Below, in pieces: positions 30,661-54,559 of a DNA stretch of 64,000 nucleotides. Position numbers and translations under genes: made by a program. This stretch comes from Halapricum desulfuricans. GTDB lineage: Archaea > Halobacteriota > Halobacteria > Halobacteriales > Haloarculaceae. The stretch lies in contig NZ_CP064791.1 of NCBI RefSeq assembly GCF_017094465.1, positions 744,001 to 808,000 of the forward strand, in the 5' to 3' direction. Numbering within the stretch: position 1 is the stretch's first letter; each line of letters starts with the position of its first letter. The notes under the pieces are model-generated. The model had not been told where the DNA came from and searched no databases. It was given only the letters and a program-made list of their open reading frames with translations.

Positions 30661-30675
30661 GGCCTCGGCACTCAT
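30661..30675 (+). repeat. Left copy of the 15-bp border repeat (candidate attL core)
   Basis: The sequence ggcctcggcactcat is identical to 54325-54339. Flanking bases also match partly (aatggc before, gg after). It lies between the VapBC pair and the DUF262 gene. Confidence 0.6.
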
Positions 30676-37870: not shown

Positions 37871-40003
37871 TTATGATCGGGTTCCGAGGGTCCAAACCTC
37901 AAATGAACTGGGATCTTTCCCGTTTTCCAGCAACTCCATTCCCTGTTGGAAAGTCTCTACAACGTGTTTTTCCTTAGAATCCAGAGAGCTTTCTTCTATC
38001 TCAGAGAGTCGGCCTTTGATTTCATCAAGGTCGGCAAACGAATCTAGCCATCTCGGATCGAGGTATTCAATTTCAGTACTTCCCGAGCGACCAGTGAGAA
38101 CGAAGTTTCCAACAAATCTTATGAGGCCTTCTTCATCATCGGTGACATTGTTTGCCCATTCCTCAGGTTTGTCCGATGGCGACCATTCACTCCAATTCTC
38201 TACTACCGTACCGATACGTGGTGTACCAAGGCCAAATTGGGGTTCAGTGAGGAGTTCACGTTCCTCGGCGAGTTCTTCAAACCGTCTAACTGCAGCTGTT
38301 TTCAACTCTTCAACTTGGTCTCTATCAAGCATCTTTTCGCTATCTTCGATCTCGTCACCATCCACCTCACCATGCTCCCGAAGTAGCTTGTTGACTGTAT
38401 AATAGAGAAGATAGGGAGAATCAGACTCAGCGAACGAAGATTTGAGCAATTCTAGTCGATCGTCTTTGTCTTCAATTTGTCCGAGAATCTCCCATATGAT
38501 CCGAATGATAAAGCCTCTACTACCGTCATCCAGCGCGTTTTTAGAAGGATCAACAGTGGTTAAGTAATCCCCGACTCTGTACAGCGATTTAACCATTGCC
38601 GCTTCGTCGTTGATATCTTCTGTTCGCTTTGATATTCGTTTAAGAAAATTGTTAGCCTTCGATCGTTCCCCGTTTTCCTCGGCTAGTTCCTCGAGCCGCT
38701 CTGTTAGTGTTTCAGCATCATCTGTAATCGCCAAAATGGCCACTATCTCCTCCGAGGACAATTCTCCCTTCGGGAGAGTCTGCCGGAAATAGTAGGGAAA
38801 TATCTCAGGATGGCAGATTCTTCTACGTTTTCGATAAGTGTCACTATGCTCAGTATATCTCACGCGAACATCCGTATCAATACGGGGAAAAAGATACTCT
38901 AAGATTGATTTCAACGGCTCTTCATTGACTTCTGTTTCCTCCCATAGATCGGCGTGATTTTCATCAGCAGTATGAGAAAGCGTTCGTTTTCTCACGAACC
39001 GGTCTGGGTTCGAACGTATCTCTTCATAGACTGGACTAAAATAGAGTCTTACTGTTTCAAGAGCAACTAGATCAACGAAATTAACCTCATCTTCCAAACC
39101 TAAATGGGTGGTATATACTGCATTTGATAAGCGCACCGCATCCCTCGGCGTATCTATCAGTGGTTGAATACCCTTACGATAAACCTCCTGCCAGTGACTT
39201 TGGTCGAAGTATAGATCACTGCTATGGAGTATCTCATCGAGTCTTTCGGTAAGGAAGAAATGGAGTGCGTTTTCTTCGGGAAGAGGGACTTGTTGTGGTA
39301 ACTGGATAATTTTGTCAAGATATTCCTTACCATCGTTGACTCCCTGATTACTTTCTAGTGCCTTTGTTACAACATCTTGGTCAAACGCAAGAACGTAGAT
39401 GATATTAGGAAAGTCTGCTACACTTTTCACCAACCGAAACATCTGTCGGATTTCTTCCTGAGTCAACCGGTCAATATCGTCGATGAAAACAACGATCTGC
39501 TGGTTTTCCTCTTCGAGAGCGTCCGAGATATCTGCCTTGAGTTCATCAAGATCTGGAGGATCTGTTTCGAGTAGATTTGCTAGACCTTCAGCTGGTTTTT
39601 CTGTCGGAATGCCAACAGTGGATAGCGGTATTTTGGAAAATCCTCGAGCGTAGTCTGACAGTTTGTTCCGTATTTCCTCAAAGTTGTCGTCCATTTCCAG
39701 CCCAGCGCTAAGTTGCGAGAAGAATTTCTGAATTAGATCGGACTGGCCAGAGAACCACCATGGATTGAATCTAACTATAATCGGAGGCTCGTCCTTTTGA
39801 CGAAGTTCGTGTTCGATGAAATTGATTATCGTGCTCTTCCCTGACCCCCACTGACCATAGATGCCGACGACGAACTCGTCCGATGGAATATCAGAATAGA
39901 TCGCGTTAGAGATCTTCTCCGCGAAGTCAGCGTATCCGAGTTGGTCCTCTTCGGGGTCGTCAAGAGCAGAATCCGATAGCAACTGGGGGGTGTCCTGGGT
40001 CAC
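37871..40003 (-). CDS. KAP-family P-loop NTPase
   Basis: A 710-residue STAND-like KAP NTPase. Walker A is GQWGSGKS (50-57). The KAP signature RFNPWWFSGQ follows at 78-87, and Walker B is IVVFIDDIDRL (170-180). I see no clear membrane hairpin, which many KAP proteins have. The C-terminal 400 residues are helical and lack a recognised effector domain. KAP NTPases are known in phage exclusion and other defence loci. It is first in a run with EEP and PD-(D/E)XK nuclease genes and diverges from the McrB-like gene over 157 bases. Confidence 0.85.
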   Translation of the reverse strand: MTQDTPQLLSDSALDDPEEDQLGYADFAEKISNAIYSDIPSDEFVVGIYGQWGSGKSTIINFIEHELRQKDEPPIIVRFNPWWFSGQSDLIQKFFSQLSAGLEMDDNFEEIRNKLSDYARGFSKIPLSTVGIPTEKPAEGLANLLETDPPDLDELKADISDALEEENQQIVVFIDDIDRLTQEEIRQMFRLVKSVADFPNIIYVLAFDQDVVTKALESNQGVNDGKEYLDKIIQLPQQVPLPEENALHFFLTERLDEILHSSDLYFDQSHWQEVYRKGIQPLIDTPRDAVRLSNAVYTTHLGLEDEVNFVDLVALETVRLYFSPVYEEIRSNPDRFVRKRTLSHTADENHADLWEETEVNEEPLKSILEYLFPRIDTDVRVRYTEHSDTYRKRRRICHPEIFPYYFRQTLPKGELSSEEIVAILAITDDAETLTERLEELAEENGERSKANNFLKRISKRTEDINDEAAMVKSLYRVGDYLTTVDPSKNALDDGSRGFIIRIIWEILGQIEDKDDRLELLKSSFAESDSPYLLYYTVNKLLREHGEVDGDEIEDSEKMLDRDQVEELKTAAVRRFEELAEERELLTEPQFGLGTPRIGTVVENWSEWSPSDKPEEWANNVTDDEEGLIRFVGNFVLTGRSGSTEIEYLDPRWLDSFADLDEIKGRLSEIEESSLDSKEKHVVETFQQGMELLENGKDPSSFEVWTLGTRS

Positions 40004-40160: not shown

Positions 40161-42755
40161 GTGACTGAAAAACACGATTCCATAATCACCTTGCCTGGAG
40201 GAGTCGAGAATTATGCCGAAACGCTCCACCAAGCACTCTCTTTCGTGGAGGCTGAATCACCAACTCGTGAGGAATTTGCTGATTGGATTCTCGAAAACTT
40301 CCCCCAAATGTCGAGCCAGGGGTCTGCCGAGGACAAAGGTCGCCTTCTTGGCCGAATGGGCGTTGCCGAAGTTGAAGATGATCAATTGCAGCTCACTGAG
40401 TTGGGCAACCAGCTGCTGAATAACCCGCCACAAGAAAATGTAGAACCTTATTTTGAGACTCTGACGGATCACTATATCGGCTTTGAGACTCTACTACAGG
40501 CTCTGAAGCAGCAACCGGTATCGATTGAGAAACTACGAGACGTCCTCAATGCAGTTCACGACAAGGATTGGGAGTCGATCTATCAAGCCGAATATCGAGT
40601 AAACTGGTTGCGGAGTCTCGGCATAGTTGAGAAAGACCAAGATAAGGTACGGCTCACATCGCGTGGTCAGGATATTGCAGAGGAGTATCCTTCATTAGAT
40701 ATCGACATCAGCGACCTATCCGAACCTACGATCCAAGCGCCTACTAACGGCCCTGATCCGCAGTCGAATATAGGTCTCGAGGAGTTCGACGACGACGTCA
40801 CCTATTACTGGGTGAACCAGAGCAATGCCGCCGAACGTGAGGGTAACTATCTTCGATCGAGCGACACGTACTATACTCGGGATTTAACGAAGTTGAACCC
40901 CGGTGACGTACTCATCCACTATTGGGAGGGTGGAGTTCGGGCCTACTCGGTCGTGCAAAATGAGGCATATAAAATCTCAGGGGAAGAACTCGAAGGAGCA
41001 GACGACGAAGAGACATACTGGCGTGTCGATATAGACCTCCACTCCCTCGAACCTATCCGTGACATCGAAACCATAGCGCCTGTTCTCCGACGAGACGATA
41101 TTAAACAAGGCCGGGAGAAATACGCGATCAATGCGACTGGGGTCCAATCATGGTATCTCTGCAATCTCACCCCTGCTGCGGCCGAATACCTCCTTAGCAC
41201 CTATCCTGATGAACCGAGCGAGACAGAACCAGACAAAGGTCGATATTTTTGGGTGACAGCTAACCCTGAGATTTGGGCGCCTGAGAACATCGCCGACTCC
41301 GATGGAGAAGAAGGTCGTGTTTTCTTTGAAGCTCACAATTCGCGAGGGAACAAGCGGCGTATCTACGATGGATTTGAACGCGCCGATCCGGGAGATGAAG
41401 TTGTCTTCTACGAGTCGGCTCCAACCCAGGAAATCGTGGCCCTTGGAACGGTCGTCCAGGAGCTTCACGAAGAGGATGGTGCAACCGGTATAACAATCGA
41501 ATACGACCGATCAGTTGAAGGAATCAGTTGGAATGACCTGACTGCAGTCGGTGAACTCGAGGATTCCGCGCCGATTCGACAGAATGCTCGTGGTAGTATC
41601 TTTGAGCTTGAGCAAAATGAGTATGAGACGATTCTGGCACTCGAGCCCGAGCCGCCAGGCCAGGAAGATGTCGAACGACTCCGCAATCGTCTTTCTCTGC
41701 CGAGTATATCGACCTCAATTCCGGACGGCTTGTATTTCGATGATGAAACACGGCTGACGAGAGAAATTGAAGCAGCACTCAACGCTGGTAAGCACATTAT
41801 TTTCACCGGACCCCCAGGTACTGGTAAGACCAAACTCGCCACTCACGTCGCCAAACTCGCAACCGGGTATGATGCTGTGGATGACTATCGGTTTACGACT
41901 GCGACCGCTGACTGGACGGCCTTCGACACGATCGGGGGATATGTTCCCAACCGAGACAAACACGGACAGGAACTGCTGTTTGAACCTCGTCTGTTCCTCC
42001 AGTGCTTCCGGGATGCGACAGGCGTGAAAAACGAGTGGCTCGTTATCGACGAGCTCAACCGAGCAGATATCGACAAGGCGATGGGACAATTGTTCTCAGT
42101 GCTTTCAGGGGACTCCACTGAGCTTCCATACGAGCGTGACGAGGCCATTGCAGTAGAATCGCTGGGGGAAGATGCCGACGATGAAACGCTCGAGGATATT
42201 GTTTCTTCTTCGGATACGTTCCCTGTCACACCGGCGTGGCGTTTACTTGCGACCATGAACACCTACGACAAGGCATCGCTCTACGAACTATCGTATGCGT
42301 TCATGCGACGGTTTGCGTTCATACATGTCGGGGTTCCAAATCTCGAAGACGATGAAGATAAGCTTCGGACTTCATTGTTGCTACCGAACGGTGACGAGAA
42401 CTTTGCGTCGGCATGGACTGGACAATCACCCGATTTGGAACCTCCATTGGAGAAGTGGGGAGAAGAGCTGACTGAGATTTGGTACCGGGTCAATGAAGAG
42501 CGAGCCATCGGACCAGCGATCGTTCATGACATGGTCCGATATATCGCTAACTATGATGGCCGGGCTCCGCCTGAGGAAGCGTTTACAAGCGCGATTACTA
42601 CCCATGTCTATCCGCAGTTAGAGGGTCTCCGACAGGAAAAACAGCGGAAAATCATCGAAGGTCTCTGTAGTGGTGATGTTCCGGTTAGTCCAGACCGTCT
42701 CTGGTACCAGGCTAATGACTTCTTAGGGCTCCCTGATACCCGCGATAATGAGTAA
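40161..42755 (+). CDS. McrB-like AAA+ GTPase with two EVE-like domains
   Basis: An 864-residue motor/reader subunit of a modification-dependent restriction system. Residues 1-190 look like tandem winged-helix segments. Two EVE/PUA-like domains follow: YYWVNQSNAAEREG (from 215) and RYFWVTANPEIW (from 361), the fold used to read modified bases. The McrB-type AAA+ domain has Walker A GPPGTGKT (550-557), Walker B WLVIDELNRAD and the McrB sensor ATMNTYDKASL. The GTG start at 40161 fits a leaderless transcript; the next in-frame ATG is 50 codons later. It overlaps the McrC-like gene by eight bases. Confidence 0.88.
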   Translation: MTEKHDSIITLPGGVENYAETLHQALSFVEAESPTREEFADWILENFPQMSSQGSAEDKGRLLGRMGVAEVEDDQLQLTELGNQLLNNPPQENVEPYFETLTDHYIGFETLLQALKQQPVSIEKLRDVLNAVHDKDWESIYQAEYRVNWLRSLGIVEKDQDKVRLTSRGQDIAEEYPSLDIDISDLSEPTIQAPTNGPDPQSNIGLEEFDDDVTYYWVNQSNAAEREGNYLRSSDTYYTRDLTKLNPGDVLIHYWEGGVRAYSVVQNEAYKISGEELEGADDEETYWRVDIDLHSLEPIRDIETIAPVLRRDDIKQGREKYAINATGVQSWYLCNLTPAAAEYLLSTYPDEPSETEPDKGRYFWVTANPEIWAPENIADSDGEEGRVFFEAHNSRGNKRRIYDGFERADPGDEVVFYESAPTQEIVALGTVVQELHEEDGATGITIEYDRSVEGISWNDLTAVGELEDSAPIRQNARGSIFELEQNEYETILALEPEPPGQEDVERLRNRLSLPSISTSIPDGLYFDDETRLTREIEAALNAGKHIIFTGPPGTGKTKLATHVAKLATGYDAVDDYRFTTATADWTAFDTIGGYVPNRDKHGQELLFEPRLFLQCFRDATGVKNEWLVIDELNRADIDKAMGQLFSVLSGDSTELPYERDEAIAVESLGEDADDETLEDIVSSSDTFPVTPAWRLLATMNTYDKASLYELSYAFMRRFAFIHVGVPNLEDDEDKLRTSLLLPNGDENFASAWTGQSPDLEPPLEKWGEELTEIWYRVNEERAIGPAIVHDMVRYIANYDGRAPPEEAFTSAITTHVYPQLEGLRQEKQRKIIEGLCSGDVPVSPDRLWYQANDFLGLPDTRDNE

Positions 42756-44286: not shown

Positions 44287-45051
44287 ATGGTTGCATTAGA
44301 ACGTGAGCAGGTAGAGGGAATCGCCAACGACTGTTACGTTGATATCTACATTGCTGGCAATCTTTCCAACGGTTGGTGGCCCTGGCGGATGCAGCATGTC
44401 AATGAATCAGGTCCGAGTCACGTCGATAGGTGTGAGAGTTACATTCTCGATAGCTCGTATCGCGATAGGAATGTTGGTAACAGGGACGTGTTCGATCGAG
44501 CCCACGAACTTGGGGCCGATATGGTCGTCTTGGCTGACGTTCTCCACGATATGGAGTCAACCGTCGACGCCGTCCGGGATGGGTTGAATTTACTGGATAA
44601 CCATCCCTGTGAGGCTGACCCGATTATTCCCCTACAGCCGCCGCATAGCGAGTGTTATCGGCGACTCGAAGGGCTAGCTGACAGGTATGCGATTGGCGGC
44701 GTCAACACTGCAAGCACGCGTGAAAAGGTCGAAGCAGCCGGGGCCGTTCGTAATATAGCTGGACAAGATATCTGGCTACACGGACTCGGCTATGGTCTGG
44801 AAACACCTCAACCTCGATATGGATGCAATACATTAGTGTACGCTCTGAACGAGAATCCCGGCTTGCTTGACTCGCTGGATTACTCGACTCCAATCCAGAA
44901 CGCGCTAAATCAACCCATCAGCTCCGGAGATCACCGTACTATTCCTTCGAATGTCTATGCTGGATACGTGGTTCTGGAAGCTGCTCGACTGCTTTCTCCT
45001 TCGACACGGGTCGTGTCTGATGCCGAAAACCCCACCCCACTCGCATGGTGA
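44287..45051 (+). CDS. Unknown protein, possibly tRNA-guanine-transglycosylase-like
   Basis: A 254-residue protein I do not firmly recognise. YILDSSYRDRNVGNRDVFDRA, ADMVVLADVLHDMEST, DPIIPLQPPHSECYRRLEGL and AIGGVNTAS look like successive strands of a TIM barrel. They are reminiscent of TGT/DpdA proteins (the DS motif, the Asp-rich segment, then GG-V). DpdA-type proteins insert 7-deazaguanines into DNA, but no other deazaguanine genes are present. It starts immediately after the duplicated regulator fragment and lies 101 bases before the regulator-integrase operon. Confidence 0.55.
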   Translation: MVALEREQVEGIANDCYVDIYIAGNLSNGWWPWRMQHVNESGPSHVDRCESYILDSSYRDRNVGNRDVFDRAHELGADMVVLADVLHDMESTVDAVRDGLNLLDNHPCEADPIIPLQPPHSECYRRLEGLADRYAIGGVNTASTREKVEAAGAVRNIAGQDIWLHGLGYGLETPQPRYGCNTLVYALNENPGLLDSLDYSTPIQNALNQPISSGDHRTIPSNVYAGYVVLEAARLLSPSTRVVSDAENPTPLAW

Positions 45052-45091
45052 CACTCGGGTCAGGAGTGCCAATTCCTGCATCGAATGAGCA

Positions 45092-45108
45092 ACCGGTAGT
45101 CTACCGGT
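45092..45108. promoter_or_regulatory. Perfect inverted repeat before the integrase operon
   Basis: ACCGGTAG-T-CTACCGGT has perfect 8-bp arms. It lies 45 bases before the regulator start and contains TCTACCGGT, the motif also found just inside both element borders (30686 and 54308). It may be an operator or an integrase arm-binding site. Confidence 0.55.
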
Positions 45109-45152
45109 GGTATTAATCCTCTGACAATATGATTATGAATTGGAGAGTAACG

Positions 45153-45659
45153 ATGACAGATACATCTGAATCCTGGCGGGAGCAGGGTGAGAACATGGGT
45201 CTCAATGAAGAGACGGCTCGCATCGAACTGTACTGCAACTATCGGGACAAAGAAACATGGCAAGAAGAAGCCGACGTCGAGAATTACAGCAGTCTCAACA
45301 AGTATCTCCGCGATATGATTAATCTCGGTCGTGTGTACCGCAAAGAGGGGACTCAAGGCCGACAAGACGCTGACGATAGGGTTCAGGAACTCGAAGCCCA
45401 AATCGAAACGCTCCAACGAGAGTTGGCTAACCAGGAACCGGAGACCATCGGCCCTGACGTCGTTGATAACGCCCTCATTGAAACGCTACTCGGCGAGCAG
45501 TACCAGACCGTCGAAGAGATTCTCGAACAGTTGACCGCGAATGAGAACCTCCAAGCGAATCTCAAGAAACCAGTCGAAGACGCACTCTATGACTTGGCTG
45601 GCGACGGCCGTGCGGAGTATCAGGAAGGCTGGGGCTGGCGGCTTGGCGGTGAACAATGA
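45153..45659 (+). CDS. Small coiled-coil regulator upstream of the integrase
   Basis: A 168-residue protein. The N-terminal part (RIELYCNYRDKETWQEEADV ... SLNKYLRDMINLGRVY) resembles an RHH/MetJ-Arc DNA-binding unit. It is followed by a coiled coil (VQELEAQIETLQRELANQ) and a winged-helix-like C-terminus. The ATG at 45153 has a GGAG ribosome site seven bases upstream, which favours it over 45129. Its stop overlaps the integrase start (ATGAG), as is usual for such regulator-integrase pairs in haloarchaea. It is likely to act on excision or on the palindrome upstream. Confidence 0.75.
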   Translation: MTDTSESWREQGENMGLNEETARIELYCNYRDKETWQEEADVENYSSLNKYLRDMINLGRVYRKEGTQGRQDADDRVQELEAQIETLQRELANQEPETIGPDVVDNALIETLLGEQYQTVEEILEQLTANENLQANLKKPVEDALYDLAGDGRAEYQEGWGWRLGGEQ

Positions 45660-46591
45660 GCAAACCAAAACGGCACTCCAAGATCTACGAGAACAAGCAT
45701 GACGAGGTGAACGAGTTCCTCCAACGGAAGGAAGACCTCGGACGCAGCCGGAGTACACTGAATGAATACAGTCGCAATCTCCGTGAGTTCTTCAACGACG
45801 AATTTTCTGAGGTAGAGCCAGCTGATGTCGAGGTGCGACACATCGAGGAATATCTTGGTATCCTGAGCGAGCGGGATGTCGCACAGAACACGAAACGGCG
45901 CTATCTCGAATCACTATCTTCGTTCTTCGACTATGCGATGAAGCGACCACGTTTCAACCAGATAACGGGTAATCCAGTCGCGCCCGTCCTCGAAGAACTT
46001 CCAAAGGTGAACCGCTCACGCCCGGACTGTGCGACGTGGGAGAACGCTTGTAAGATTGTTCACGAGATACCCAGCCCCCGTAACCGGACGATAGCCGCCA
46101 TCCTCGCCAAGACTGGCTGCCGCTTACAAGAGGCGCTGGAAATTGAACTTGAAGATCTCCTAATCGATGATGGATTCATTCGGCTCCGGGTTCGGAAGGG
46201 CGGCGGACAAACGGTTGTGCCCGTTGACGAGGAGATGGTTCGGGCGATTGAACGCTACAAGGTGATTCGAACTGACTACGAGACTGCCTATCTGTTCCCA
46301 AGCAATCGAGGAGATCGCCTCTCAAAACAGCCAATTCGAAAACGAATCAAAGAGGGCGCTGTGGAAGCAGGTGTGATGGAACAGGGGGAGGACCGCTTCC
46401 ACCGGAAGTTCACCCCACACACGTTTCGGACCGTGTTTACGACGGCGATGCGGAACGCAGGGATGAGTAATCACGTTCTTCAGTATATTCGCGGCGATAG
46501 CGATAATCAGACGATGGACATCTATACTCGCGTCGACCGCACTACGGCCCGAGAAGAATACCTTGACTGTATCAAATCGCTGAACCTCTGA
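45656..46591 (+). CDS. Tyrosine recombinase / integrase
   Basis: A 311-residue site-specific recombinase. A SAM-like core-binding domain (about 15-110) precedes the catalytic domain. Catalytic residues visible are Arg in TGCRLQEAL, Lys in RVRKGGGQT, His/Arg in PHTFRTVFTTAM, and nucleophile Tyr in MDIYTRVD. The usual second His is in a divergent RGDSDNQT segment. It presumably integrates and excises this element. It is not split, so its attachment site is outside its own coding sequence. Confidence 0.92.
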   Translation: MSKPKRHSKIYENKHDEVNEFLQRKEDLGRSRSTLNEYSRNLREFFNDEFSEVEPADVEVRHIEEYLGILSERDVAQNTKRRYLESLSSFFDYAMKRPRFNQITGNPVAPVLEELPKVNRSRPDCATWENACKIVHEIPSPRNRTIAAILAKTGCRLQEALEIELEDLLIDDGFIRLRVRKGGGQTVVPVDEEMVRAIERYKVIRTDYETAYLFPSNRGDRLSKQPIRKRIKEGAVEAGVMEQGEDRFHRKFTPHTFRTVFTTAMRNAGMSNHVLQYIRGDSDNQTMDIYTRVDRTTAREEYLDCIKSLNL

Positions 46592-46817: not shown

Positions 46818-46913
46818 ATGAAGGAAGGCAGGAAGGTGAGCCCGGAGGGAAGCCCCGGCTGGCTCGCCCAGGAGGTTCGGACTCATGAATCACTACGAGA
46901 GCAAGGAGAATAA
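46818..46913 (+). CDS. 31-residue leader-like ORF overlapping the primase start
   Basis: A short frame encoding MKEGRKVSPEGSPGWLAQEV..., which overlaps the first 29 bases of the primase gene in another frame. Its sequence is hydrophilic and lacks low-complexity bias. A hairpin-like gagcccggag/ccccggctggctc region lies within it. It may be a translated leader that couples to primase synthesis. It could also be fortuitous, so confidence is moderate. The 220 bases before it (46592-46817) show nothing else. Confidence 0.45.
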   Translation: MKEGRKVSPEGSPGWLAQEVRTHESLREQGE

Positions 46914-48171
46914 TTCTGCTGATTGTCATGTCTACCCACGGTTTTCCGAGCCTGGTACTCTTCGAGGATTCACGGTTACGACAGCAAGACCACCATTAGA
47001 GGCTCCCGGTCAAGTTCATACTCGACTAGTTGAGGCTGGTCTACCTGCCGAACGATTCGTGGACCTTCAGGACGGAACGAAAGAGCCGACAGCCAGCCAT
47101 ACTGACCCTGCGAACCAGTTCGGTGCCGAACACGTCGACGGAAACTACGGTATCTTCGCGGGATCGGGACTCATCGTCATCGACGTTGATCACCCCGACA
47201 AGCTTCCCACCTGGATGGTTCAGCTTTTGGCCCAGAATCCCACCTTTGCGGTTTCATCACCACATGGAAGCGAAGCTCGCCGGCACTACTTCTATCGGAT
47301 CGAGGGTACCGTCGAGACGGAGAAGACGTTCCTCAAAGACGAGTGGGGGAGTATCCGACTCAAGGGGGCCTACGCAGTCGGGCCTGGTTCGGTGATCGAT
47401 CACGACGAATACTGTGACGATTGTTCGCTCGCCGGTATCGGGGAATACGAGCCCCGTGCTCGATCGATCGAGACTCTCCAAGCCAACGCGTTCGAACCAG
47501 CACTTCCAGACGAGAGAGCGGAGACGGCTGACTCACGGGCTTCAGTCGAGATTGACATCAACGATCCCGAGTCCCGTATTCAACGAGGCCTCGATACGAA
47601 CGAATATTTCCGTGACCTCTGGACCTGGGCTCGTGAAGGCGGACGTCCTGCGATTGTCGGGTTTCCCGGGAATCGCTCGGCTGCGGAAACGGCGCTCTCG
47701 GCACACCTCAATTTCTGGTTGAGCGGGGATACCGACGCTATCCGTGATGCGTTCAACCGAATCCAACCGCCAAAGTGGTCTGTATCGGGGGAATCGTACC
47801 GACAGAGCGTGTTAGAGCAGGGCGATAACGGGATGTACTACGATCCAAATCCAGAGGGTGGCGGCGTCAGTTGGCATGCTGTCTTCGAGGTGATACTCGC
47901 TCTCTGTTACGAGTATGAGGGACAAGCTCGAACGCGGGCTCTGGCCGCCAGTGAGGACGTCGAAGTGAGCCAACGACAGGTGGTCAACGTGCTCAATCAA
48001 CTGAAGGAGATGGGATACCTCGACAAACAGCAAGACGAGCAGGACGGCCGGATCGAGTATTGGGTCGTCACCGACATGGAGGGATTAGTAGAGTTCTCAA
48101 ATAGTGACGACCTACTTGAACAGTACAATCCCCGTGATGCTCAACTCGAATGGTGTCGTCGGTATCTATAG
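46885..48171 (+). CDS. Prim-pol type DNA primase/polymerase
   Basis: A 428-residue replication protein of mobile elements. The bifunctional primase-polymerase domain has NYGIFAGSGLIVIDVDHPD (catalytic DVD) and VSSPHGSEARRHYFYR, which matches the S-P-x-G-x-x-H-x-Y core. IRLKGAYAVGPGSV completes the site. The C-terminus carries a winged helix (EVSQRQVVNVLNQLKEMGYLD). No helicase domain is fused. It would prime replication of the excised element, working with the ParB-clamp protein and host polymerases; this is inference. Confidence 0.88.
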   Translation: MNHYESKENNSADCHVYPRFSEPGTLRGFTVTTARPPLEAPGQVHTRLVEAGLPAERFVDLQDGTKEPTASHTDPANQFGAEHVDGNYGIFAGSGLIVIDVDHPDKLPTWMVQLLAQNPTFAVSSPHGSEARRHYFYRIEGTVETEKTFLKDEWGSIRLKGAYAVGPGSVIDHDEYCDDCSLAGIGEYEPRARSIETLQANAFEPALPDERAETADSRASVEIDINDPESRIQRGLDTNEYFRDLWTWAREGGRPAIVGFPGNRSAAETALSAHLNFWLSGDTDAIRDAFNRIQPPKWSVSGESYRQSVLEQGDNGMYYDPNPEGGGVSWHAVFEVILALCYEYEGQARTRALAASEDVEVSQRQVVNVLNQLKEMGYLDKQQDEQDGRIEYWVVTDMEGLVEFSNSDDLLEQYNPRDAQLEWCRRYL

Positions 48172-48650: not shown

Positions 48651-49181
48651 ATGGACGCTGACGAGATCCGAGACTGGCGCGACCGTTACGACGAGGTCTA
48701 TGACGACGAACTTCAGGCTATCGAGGCGCGTCTCCACGAGGACCTTACCGACCAACAGTATATCACTCGCGACCAACTCGAAGACGTGGTTCGGTGGAAA
48801 CTGAACGGTATGCCAGGAAGACGTGAACGGAATATCAAGCAGGTACAGACTGTCCCGGATGAGTTCGTTCGACTGGTGAGTGAGGCGGCGTTTCTGGTCG
48901 ACGATCCAGCCCTCCAACTGAAAACGCTGAAATCGATTCCAGGGATCGGTGGTGCAACGGCAACGGTCATACTGATGTTCTACGACCCCGAAACCTACGC
49001 GATCGGTGACCGATATATCGTTCACGAGTTCTTCGGAGAGGACCGAGGTATGCGCGTCACGGACTATCCCGACATCCTCGAAGAACTCCACGACCGCAAC
49101 CCCGGCGGCTTCGACCTCCGAACCGTTGAGAAAGCCTACTATCAGAGATACCGGATCGAGAACGACGTTGGGGACTGGTAA
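48651..49181 (+). CDS. Helix-hairpin-helix DNA-binding protein
   Basis: A 176-residue protein with an HhH motif, LKSIPGIGGATATVIL (about 93-108), followed by FYDPETYAIGDRYIVHEFFG. This resembles the HhH core and following segment of DNA glycosylases, including a potential catalytic Asp in AIGDRY. N-terminal RWKLNGMPGRRERNI matches a conserved haloarchaeal hypothetical family. It lacks an iron-sulfur cluster. It may be a repair or DNA-structure-binding protein. Confidence 0.7.
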   Translation: MDADEIRDWRDRYDEVYDDELQAIEARLHEDLTDQQYITRDQLEDVVRWKLNGMPGRRERNIKQVQTVPDEFVRLVSEAAFLVDDPALQLKTLKSIPGIGGATATVILMFYDPETYAIGDRYIVHEFFGEDRGMRVTDYPDILEELHDRNPGGFDLRTVEKAYYQRYRIENDVGDW

Positions 49182-50137: not shown

Positions 50138-50416
50138 CTATCCAATCTCGTCTCGAGGAGGAAGCCAAGCCTCACGTCCTAACTCAGTGATTCGGTACCA
50201 ACGGGCCTTTTCATCTTCATCTGGGTTCACACACTCTACTAGGTCGCGTTCCTGCAACTCAGCAAGTGCTTCACTGACCCGCTGACGGCGGTACCCCTGG
50301 TCATCAGCGATCTCTATTGGACGGGCTTGCTTTCCATCCCACAGATACCACATAGTATTAGCTCTAAATCTTGAGCTGCTGATGAACTCGTAGAGATCAT
50401 CAGTATCAGTGGGCAT
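50138..50416 (-). CDS. Winged-helix transcriptional regulator
   Basis: A 92-residue MarR/PadR-like winged helix: FRANTMWYLWDGKQARPIEI, then the recognition helix YRRQRVSEALAELQERDLVE and a wing (ARWYRITELG). It is divergent from the ParB-clamp gene across 120 bases, so it probably represses that gene and itself. The preceding spacer, 49959-50137, shows no gene. Confidence 0.8.
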   Translation of the reverse strand: MPTDTDDLYEFISSSRFRANTMWYLWDGKQARPIEIADDQGYRRQRVSEALAELQERDLVECVNPDEDEKARWYRITELGREAWLPPRDEIG

Positions 50417-50536
50417 CAGTTGATACCACGTTTGGAGCCTTCTCTAAAATATCAACTGGGGATTGAGCATCACCATCGTAACGGATTTTATAAAATTCGT
50501 AACATTTGATTTACACATCCGGGTCGAAATTCGGGT

Positions 50537-52135
50537 ATGGCTCAAAATGAGCCGCGGAACGGCCCGAACGAGAACTGTGCGGAAAGACAAACCACCGGCA
50601 AAATTGCAGGAAAATCCCACTCGGTGACAGTTGAACACTGTGACCCCGAGGCCCTGACACCGCATCCACGAAACGAAGATATCTACGGTGACGGAGCTCC
50701 AGACTGGTTCGTTGAGACGATCGATGAAAACAGCATCGAGGAGCCGATCATGCTCGTCGCCGAGAGTCACCTAGTGGATGAGGATACGGAGGTAGTCATT
50801 AGTGGCCACCGACGCATTGACGCTGCGAAACAGCTTGGACTCGAGGAAGTCCCCGTTATTATTCGCGACCCTTACGAATCGGAATTGGCCGAACGTGAGG
50901 GGCTTATCGAACACAACAAACAGCGGAAGAAGTCGTTCAGTCAGAAGATGCGGGAAGCGAAGGAATTGATTCAGATTGAACGCGAACGTGCCAAGAAGCG
51001 ACAACAGCGGGGCAAGGCTATCGACGACGCGAGGGGTCCTCAAGATTTTGAGGAAGGTGAAACGTACGAACTCGTCGCTGACCGCTTTGACCGGTCGAAA
51101 GGATGGCTTCGATATTCGGTAGAGGTCTGGGACGCGCAAAATAGCGATAATGAAATGATTGCGAATCGGGCAGAGAACCTTGTTGAGCAGATAGACCGCG
51201 GCGAGACGTCTCCCTATAACGCGTATCAGACTATCAAGACCAGACGTAAACAGCTCGACCGAAGTTTATCGACAACCGAGAGCATACAGTTTGATGGAAA
51301 TAGTGTCGATCATGAGGACCACCCACCCGCGCAGGCATCTTGGTTGGTCGACTCGTCTAAGCTGAAGCGAATATTAGAGGTCGGGAGCGTCGGGCTCTTT
51401 GACTGGCTCTATTTGGAGATCTCACCCGGGAGAGTTCAGGTCCTTCAGTCTACGCTTCCCGGCGCAACCGGTAGAGTCGTTTCGTATTGCAGCTTTGGAG
51501 AGGAGTATTTCGAGCAATTCGAGCTTGCTCGTGATGAGTCGCTAAAGGCCTTCATTGACGCAGAGCGCATCTATACGACAGTGGAAAGGGATGATAGCGA
51601 TACCGTCCAACTGAAATTCCGAGCAGACGATACTGATGACTTCGCCACAGGGGTTGAGTTCGTGGGGGACTTACAGTTCTGGAGTCGAACGAATGCCATT
51701 GACGATCAGAGCGAATTAGAAGCGCTCTTGGAGCGAATTCCGGTTGATATCCATAATCGGTTTCATGACCAAGATATCCTTCTGGACTCAGGCGGGAATC
51801 AAGCCTCAACCCGAATCGAGACCCGAGTTAGTGAGGTTATGAATATGATGTGGGTCGTGAACCACACACCGGGAGACGACGACTATCCAGTAACAGTCGA
51901 AGACGGAGAGTTTAGATTCTTCACGGGTGACGAGACCTCATATATGAAGGGGCGACTGGACGCAAACGTATCTGGTCCGGAGGTTTCCAAGAGATTCGAT
52001 TTTGGATTCGACGAGGTCTTTAACACACTATCAGGCAAGGTTGAACTTCAGACTGCACCAGCCGAACAAGCTCTACTAGCAGTCGTTCAGCGCAACGATG
52101 ACCATGTAATCCGCCACGTCATCGCTCCAGCGTAG
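50537..52135 (+). CDS. ParB-like protein with PCNA-like C-terminal domain
   Basis: A 532-residue protein with an unusual layout. Residues 28-130 form a ParB N-domain with the CTP/DNA motif SGHRRIDAAKQLG (GHRR 90-93) and EREGLIEHNKQR. A HTH-like helical part follows to about 240. Residues 268-532 look like a sliding clamp: WLVDSSKLKRILEVGSV and DAERIYTTVERDDSDTVQLKF recall the first clamp domain. STRIETRVSEV and FDFGFDEVFNTLSGKVELQT recall the second, and the end, VIRHVIAPA, resembles the PCNA terminus Y-M-L-A-P-R. No ParA gene is adjacent. The clamp reading is by eye only. Confidence 0.75.
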   Translation: MAQNEPRNGPNENCAERQTTGKIAGKSHSVTVEHCDPEALTPHPRNEDIYGDGAPDWFVETIDENSIEEPIMLVAESHLVDEDTEVVISGHRRIDAAKQLGLEEVPVIIRDPYESELAEREGLIEHNKQRKKSFSQKMREAKELIQIERERAKKRQQRGKAIDDARGPQDFEEGETYELVADRFDRSKGWLRYSVEVWDAQNSDNEMIANRAENLVEQIDRGETSPYNAYQTIKTRRKQLDRSLSTTESIQFDGNSVDHEDHPPAQASWLVDSSKLKRILEVGSVGLFDWLYLEISPGRVQVLQSTLPGATGRVVSYCSFGEEYFEQFELARDESLKAFIDAERIYTTVERDDSDTVQLKFRADDTDDFATGVEFVGDLQFWSRTNAIDDQSELEALLERIPVDIHNRFHDQDILLDSGGNQASTRIETRVSEVMNMMWVVNHTPGDDDYPVTVEDGEFRFFTGDETSYMKGRLDANVSGPEVSKRFDFGFDEVFNTLSGKVELQTAPAEQALLAVVQRNDDHVIRHVIAPA

Positions 52136-52433: not shown

Positions 52434-52664
52434 TTATCCGCGACACTCATCGGGGAAGTCCATCTTGTTCAGGACTTCAACCCCACAGCGGACGCATTTC
52501 AGGTAGTGTTCGATATAGCCGCTACGTGTTCCGTCTCGCTTGTGCGGCTCCGGATGGTGTCCGGGGACCCACTCGCTCTTTCGGATGACTCGATGCTCAC
52601 CGGTCTTCGAGGCTCCATCGTGTTCTGGCGGTACGACCGAAGAATTGAATTTCGATTCGCTCAT
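52434..52664 (-). CDS. Small zinc-binding protein
   Basis: A 76-residue protein ending HYLKCVRCGVEVLNKMDFPD-E-C, a C-x2-C...C pattern with nearby His (PGHHPEPHKRDG) that could hold one zinc. The N-terminal 30 residues look disordered. Similar short zinc-ribbon proteins occur near replication genes of haloarchaeal elements. No function is assigned. Confidence 0.6.
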   Translation of the reverse strand: MSESKFNSSVVPPEHDGASKTGEHRVIRKSEWVPGHHPEPHKRDGTRSGYIEHYLKCVRCGVEVLNKMDFPDECRG

Positions 52665-54189: not shown

Positions 54190-54559
54190 TCGGGAGTATG
54201 TAAGTATGGTACTTACTTATTTCTTACCCTCGCCCGAACAAAGTAGGATTGAGTCCTTCAATTATAATCATATAATCCTATAGAAGACTCAAAGTTTTCT
54301 CGCATACTCTACCGGTGGCAGAATGGCCTCGGCACTCATAGGGATCGTCATCGCCGGGTGTCGAAGCCGGCTCGGAGTCGCGGCTGCTCGCCGCGAACGG
54401 AGCGGCCGGATGCCCCGCGGTTCGACCTCACGAGACCGCGTGGTCGAGACGGGACGGTGCCGGCCGTGAGTCGTCATCGGCCACTCCGACGTTATCGTGG
54501 CAGCGTGATGAGCCCACCGTTCCACGGTGCGGCAATTGTGCAGTCGGTCTTGCTCGCCA
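54190..54559. other. Right border region of the element
   Basis: A 370-base gap. Positions 54259-54304 are AT-rich with the repeated tataatcctataga motif. TCTACCGGTGG lies at 54308 and the border repeat at 54325-54339. From 54340 the sequence becomes GC-rich like the chromosome, and no gene is seen up to the acetyltransferase. Confidence 0.55.
54325..54339 (+). repeat. Right copy of the 15-bp border repeat (candidate attR core)
   Basis: ggcctcggcactcat, identical to 30661-30675. Seven bases before it begins lies the end of TCTACCGGTGG (54308-54318), the inner motif shared with the left border and with the palindrome upstream of the integrase operon. Confidence 0.6.

Follow-up and report, generated by a model that had tools for sequence, protein, structure and literature searches.

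A gene at 50537–52135 on the forward strand of the 64,000-nucleotide stretch of the Halapricum desulfuricans genome analysed here (hereafter the window) encodes a 532-aa protein that joins a ParB-type domain to a region with the predicted fold of a PCNA sliding clamp. We read the product as a PCNA-type clamp encoded by a mobile element, in which the ParB-helix-turn-helix module would address the clamp to the element DNA for prim-pol-initiated replication, and we put the probability of this reading at roughly 55%.

A single reading frame joins the two halves

The gene runs from its ATG to its stop codon as one uninterrupted frame, and both halves claimed in the original prediction, a ParB domain and a PCNA-like clamp, could be identified in it. 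The ParB-type N-domain and the helix-turn-helix region (aa ~31–243; 50627–51265, forward strand) carry the motifs SGHRR and NKQR. A linker of ~30 aa without a conserved domain (aa ~236–266; 51242–51334, forward strand), at the position occupied in unfused ParBs by a conserved C-terminal domain of ~130 aa, leads to the modelled clamp region (aa 260–532; 51314–52132, forward strand), which starts ~30 aa past the ParB-helix-turn-helix part.

No second fusion was found among 392 genomes of the order, nor across all the clamp and ParB loci collected. Family-wide searches of 146, 28, 170, 125, and 26 genomes, sets that overlap the 392, detected the clamp or its ParB, with the fusion only in the window. 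The statement that no protein of this layout had been described agrees with our literature search, which covered few subscription papers: the ParB-type domain and the PCNA-type clamp are each of a known kind, and their union was not found in the literature searched.

The C-terminal half has the predicted fold of PCNA

The clamp half gave no Pfam, NCBIfam, or PDB match by sequence. A Pfam match to Ntox34 (0.1, below the cut-off) was dismissed as chance, and comparison of the clamp profile with the PDB by sequence produced chance matches only. PHROG 25687, listed as being of unknown function, matched residues 33–272 of the clamp part (5e-22), and tblastn matched the clamp half to an HVTV-2 gene annotated 'DNA polymerase sliding clamp PCNA' (5e-14). 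Stand-alone proteins of ~270–290 aa in haloarchaeal genomes were matched as well.

Structure prediction and a fold search on aa 260–532, set beforehand as the check on the clamp claim, matched the PCNA fold. The model, predicted from an alignment of nine family members, had a pLDDT of 86.5 and a pTM of 0.84, and its strands and helices come in the order seen in a clamp monomer. All Foldseek matches listed against the PDB were PCNA (E about 1e-12), the best VIA-align match was Haloferax volcanii PCNA 3ifv (Z 23.6, 228 residues, rmsd 2.3 Å), and the best viral model match was an HVTV-1 protein (TM 0.88). When the profile of the clamp family was compared with that of 25 canonical archaeal PCNAs, E was 1.2e-5 over 250 columns with an hhalign probability of only 60%, and the reversed control gave 0.39 over 24 columns. 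The terminal VIRHVIAPA, proposed to resemble the PCNA C-terminal signature, aligned with the LAPR segment in this comparison. Given the fold matches and the end-to-end profile alignment, the C-terminal half is, as judged from its model and sequence, a divergent PCNA-type clamp.

Between the clamp domains, the connector region exceeds that of PCNA in length, and the window protein lacks the proline of the family's PLAVV segment, so that PIP binding is uncertain; the terminal IAPA is kept. The first channel-lining helix carries a net charge of +2 in the window and viral clamps versus −3 in the host's own canonical PCNA, which is encoded elsewhere in the genome (G000:C1:2570410), and three of the four channel helices of the clamp are not basic. 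Considering that haloarchaeal PCNA itself has no basic channel (PMC2737543) and carries little channel charge (PMC2737543; PMC3404096), the low charge of the other helices is no objection.

A clamp this far from canonical PCNA, with no Pfam match and a long connector region, could also have ceased to encircle DNA. It would then join or block host PCNA rings or bind partners, and the ParB/helix-turn-helix part would control element genes, for which a palindrome by the start codon (described below) suits autoregulation. However, family members from viruses, elements, and chromosomes alike retain both clamp domains, from the opening strand through to the C-terminal end, and the viral family member lies within a replisome gene run; we consider such a scaffold or regulator unlikely.

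The N-terminal half is ParB-like with an altered CTP pocket

The ParB assignment was confirmed by profile matches. Pfam ParB_N (PF02195) matched aa 58–125 at 4.6e-6, above its curated cut-off, and TIGR00180 matched the N-terminal part at 3.5e-11, although this is under the TIGR00180 cut-off. A profile of the window protein and eight haloarchaeal relatives matched Caulobacter ParB (1.6e-11), B. subtilis Spo0J (2.8e-11), and Noc (4.3e-11) in the PDB. The eight relatives of the ParB half, all from other haloarchaea, are 34–46% identical to the window protein. A single-sequence structure prediction of the ParB half was poor and was discarded (pLDDT 53, pTM 0.23), so the fold of this half rests on sequence profiles.

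The original prediction had further taken this half to be a CTP-dependent DNA-sliding domain, which the residues do not support. In Caulobacter ParB, CTP binding is lost or weakened by R60A, R103A, R104A, R139A, N136A, G79S, and S74A, hydrolysis and DNA trapping are lost in Q58A and E135A, and hydrolysis is lost in E102A (PMC8367383). When aligned with Spo0J and Caulobacter ParB, the window protein has N for Q58, D or a gap for R60 (phosphate motif 1), T for S74, S for G79, H for E102, and H for E135; the R60 and E135 columns adjoin gaps. The only pocket equivalents kept are R103, R104, N136, and R139. Because residues for both CTP binding and hydrolysis are changed, a CTP switch of the known kind appears unlikely from the sequence. 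The arrangement first proposed, in which a ParB clamp gated by CTP is attached to a PCNA ring, could draw on the remaining GHRR and NxxR motifs and these four kept residues, but the loss of R60 and G79 and the changes at E102, E135, and Q58 affect residues that Caulobacter ParB needs (PMC8367383) and make it highly improbable.

The C-terminal dimerisation domain of ParB is absent from the window protein, and the clamp stands in its place. A motif scan of all window frames of at least 30 aa revealed no ParA-type P-loop, and canonical ParA-based partition is not supported.

The gene lies in a prim-pol-encoding mobile element

The fusion gene is located in a low-GC island (about 50% vs about 65%) with a prim-pol and a tyrosine integrase, as expected from the earlier placement in a prim-pol-encoding mobile element. 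The prim-pol has a winged-helix tail (46885–48171, forward strand; PF09250, 4.2e-11), and its relatives adjoin ParB and/or clamp genes in loci L090, L093, L134, and L156. The integrase (45656–46591, forward strand) has relatives in other elements, and its start is overlapped by a gene for a small protein (45129–45659, forward strand) whose place ahead of the integrase is conserved among related elements. A helix-hairpin-helix protein (48651–49181, forward strand) has relatives in elements L090, L131, L094, and L143. The divergent neighbour of the fusion encodes a small winged-helix protein (50138–50416, reverse strand) with weak Pfam matches only. No clamp loader gene was seen near the fusion gene.

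A 15-bp direct repeat, GGCCTCGGCACTCAT, at 30661–30675 (candidate attL) and 54325–54339 (candidate attR) encloses about 23.7 kb, giving a candidate integrated element of 30661–54339. In one congener (G259), the two flanks of the element site are about 350 bp apart. The candidate attR stands at the start of a block (54324–54384) that is strongly conserved in congeners: across the five other genomes of the genus, 53–66 nt of it show 89–98% identity, against about 74% for the surroundings. ARAGORN detected no tRNA at the insertion site, nor was there an Rfam match; the block may be an unrecognised conserved RNA or a site serving as the attB of the element. Motifs resembling CTACCGGTAG occur close to either element end; immediately ahead of the integrase operon (45090–45110), they form a palindrome.

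The island also carries defence-type cargo, namely a KAP P-loop NTPase (37871–40003) with a near full-length match to PADLOC PifA (1.5e-111), the nearby AAA_5/McrB-like gene at 40161 and its neighbour at 42748, and a HEC-06-like gene. By eye, a 254-aa protein (44287–45051) resembles a tRNA-guanine transglycosylase/DpdA relative; it has no Pfam match. Two transglycosylase-like ORFs are present in L156 (12740–14740 and 15352–16566).

Common to the related elements are the integrase, the small upstream gene, and either a prim-pol or its winged-helix tail, next to which lies a slot whose content varies. The slot holds ParB alone in genome G114, the clamp alone in G196, both in G475 and G102 (the latter with no integrase within the stretch read), and another gene or none in G020, G136, G328, G291, and G227.

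Related elements carry ParB and the clamp as neighbouring genes

In three other haloarchaeal loci, a ParB gene belonging to the subfamily of the window ParB is followed on the same strand by a clamp gene belonging to the family of the window clamp. The gap is about 36 nt in G102 (L090) and 1 nt in G160 (L091), and the two ORFs overlap by 1 nt in G475 (L156). Among these loci and the window, three of the four have the same kind of prim-pol and three of the four a related integrase. A search for homologues beside prim-pol genes in other haloarchaeal elements had been proposed at the outset. In G102, G114, G196, and G475, a prim-pol relative lies within about 1.5 kb of the ParB gene, the clamp gene, or both. 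Integrase relatives occur in G114, G160, G196, and G475.

The ParBs of G102, G160, G475, G114, and G309 share a conserved C-terminal domain of ~130 aa, which on our reading of the sequences seems to end in a second helix-turn-helix-like segment. No trace of this domain was found anywhere in the window. Separate adjacent genes in the relatives and a single fused case might suggest that a sequencing or assembly error joined two genes. However, the unfused ParBs have ~130 extra residues before their stop codon; as these are missing from the whole window, a lost stop codon or a frameshift cannot yield the fusion. The domain was replaced by the clamp, and an artefact is therefore close to excluded.

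In a midpoint-rooted tree with long branches, the clamps of elements and viruses (the window, G102, G160, G475, G196, HVTV-1, HCTV-1, and HCTV-5) split from twelve chromosomal-looking copies with a support of 86/90. The ParBs of these elements split from methyltransferase-fused ParBs with a support of 89/98.

Several further observations were made on these families. The G160 and G475 clamps (L091 11561–12649; L156 8225–9292) are longer (355–362 aa), with an insertion between the two clamp domains. A 76-aa CxxC protein of the window (52434–52664, reverse strand) is 50% identical to that of L091 9673–9912, near the ParB and clamp genes of L091. In phage MW202554 (L147), a related ParB-domain gene (573–1853) overlaps a DNA polymerase ORF (1727–2986). 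Stand-alone, apparently chromosomal copies of the clamp family occur in L013, L014, L018, L019, L092, and L100; one neighbour of the L018 copy resembles a PaaD-type protein, and the L014 clamp had no match in plasmid records.

A candidate site upstream and a possible role in partition

A 26-bp near-perfect palindrome, GTAACGGATTTTATAAAATTCGTAAC, lies at 50478–50503, 33 bp upstream of the fusion ATG, in the gap between the fusion gene and the divergent winged-helix gene. It occurs once within the window, and on inspection the palindromes of the sister loci share no sequence with it. No iterated parS-like array was found near the gene, only weak repeat families of two and three copies. By its position, the palindrome is a candidate operator or binding site.

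Such a site, together with the ParB-type core and its strong profile matches to Spo0J, ParB, and Noc, would suit a partition device, with ParB bound at a centromere-like site and a clamp ring that either retains ParB topologically on the replicated copies or couples segregation to the replication fork. But no ParA-type P-loop was found in the window, the CTP pocket residues are lost, the conserved C-terminal domain of the unfused ParB relatives is gone, and the gene neighbourhood is replicative. We regard this possibility as doubtful, and replication appears better supported than partition as the role of the fusion.

Proposed role

Known sliding clamps have no sequence specificity in DNA binding and are put on DNA by loaders. 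Since related elements carry both parts as neighbouring genes, the clamp of the fusion is probably steered to the element's own DNA. Subunits of the clamp would assemble into a ring that encircles DNA, with the N-terminal ParB-helix-turn-helix modules anchoring this ring, or its individual subunits, on the element's own DNA. After prim-pol priming, the ring could bring polymerase, nucleases, and ligase of the host to the excised element, presumably through PIP-type contacts. Host RFC would probably load the ring, as no loader gene was seen nearby, while HVTV-2 carries one.

This replicative reading is supported by the PCNA fold, the kinship with halovirus replisome clamps, the ParB-clamp gene pairs, the prim-pol/integrase setting, and the trees; we also count in its favour the ParB/polymerase overlap of phage MW202554 and the net +2 of the first channel helix. 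Counted against it are that no loader was seen nearby, the three channel helices that are not basic, the long connector, and the lost PLAVV proline. There is also a mismatch in symmetry between a clamp that forms trimers and a ParB domain that dimerises, and only one instance of the fusion was found. More tentatively, the ParB-helix-turn-helix arms might bind an element site and there position the PCNA ring, or close it, with no dedicated loader involved; the element would then have a processivity platform of its own.

A clamp covalently joined to a DNA-binding module would show in what way a mobile element can draw host replication to itself, and it might also show how clamps are placed without a loader of their own. 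Through the fusion, a divergent ParB subfamily and the PHROG 25687 clamp family gain a functional interpretation as well.

Comparison with known systems

The clamps of HVTV-1/-2 and HCTV-1/-5 (HVTV-2 gp101; PHROG 25687) belong to the same family as the window clamp, with about 28–31% identity, and share its fold (TM 0.88 to the HVTV-1 model) and a replication context. Unlike the fusion, these are stand-alone proteins of 285 aa without a ParB domain, and their genes sit among those for primase, the RFC small subunit, and PolB in what looks like an operon, whereas no clamp loader was seen near the window gene. Haloferax volcanii PCNA (3IFV) has the same two-domain fold (Z 23.6), but the window clamp is only 11–13% identical to canonical haloarchaeal PCNA, and differs in having no Pfam match, a longer connector, and an N-terminal ParB fusion.

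With the ParB/Spo0J/Noc CTPases, the window protein has in common the N-terminal core, the GxRR and NxxR motifs, and the following helix-turn-helix region; it differs in the changed CTP pocket residues, the missing dimerisation domain, and the fact that no ParA was found. Haloarchaeal ParB-domain DNA methyltransferases (L003–L007, L009, L157) have a homologous ParB-helix-turn-helix module fused to a DNA-acting domain, but their partner is, by motif reading, a DPPY-type methyltransferase instead of a clamp. In VP1 of the icosahedral halovirus HCIV-1, PCNA domains likewise lie within a larger multi-domain protein of a haloarchaeal element, although VP1 is a virion protein with two PCNA domains and no ParB domain reported (PMC4958249). 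The ParB-methyltransferase fusions and HCIV-1 VP1 are thus the nearest precedents of the fusion.
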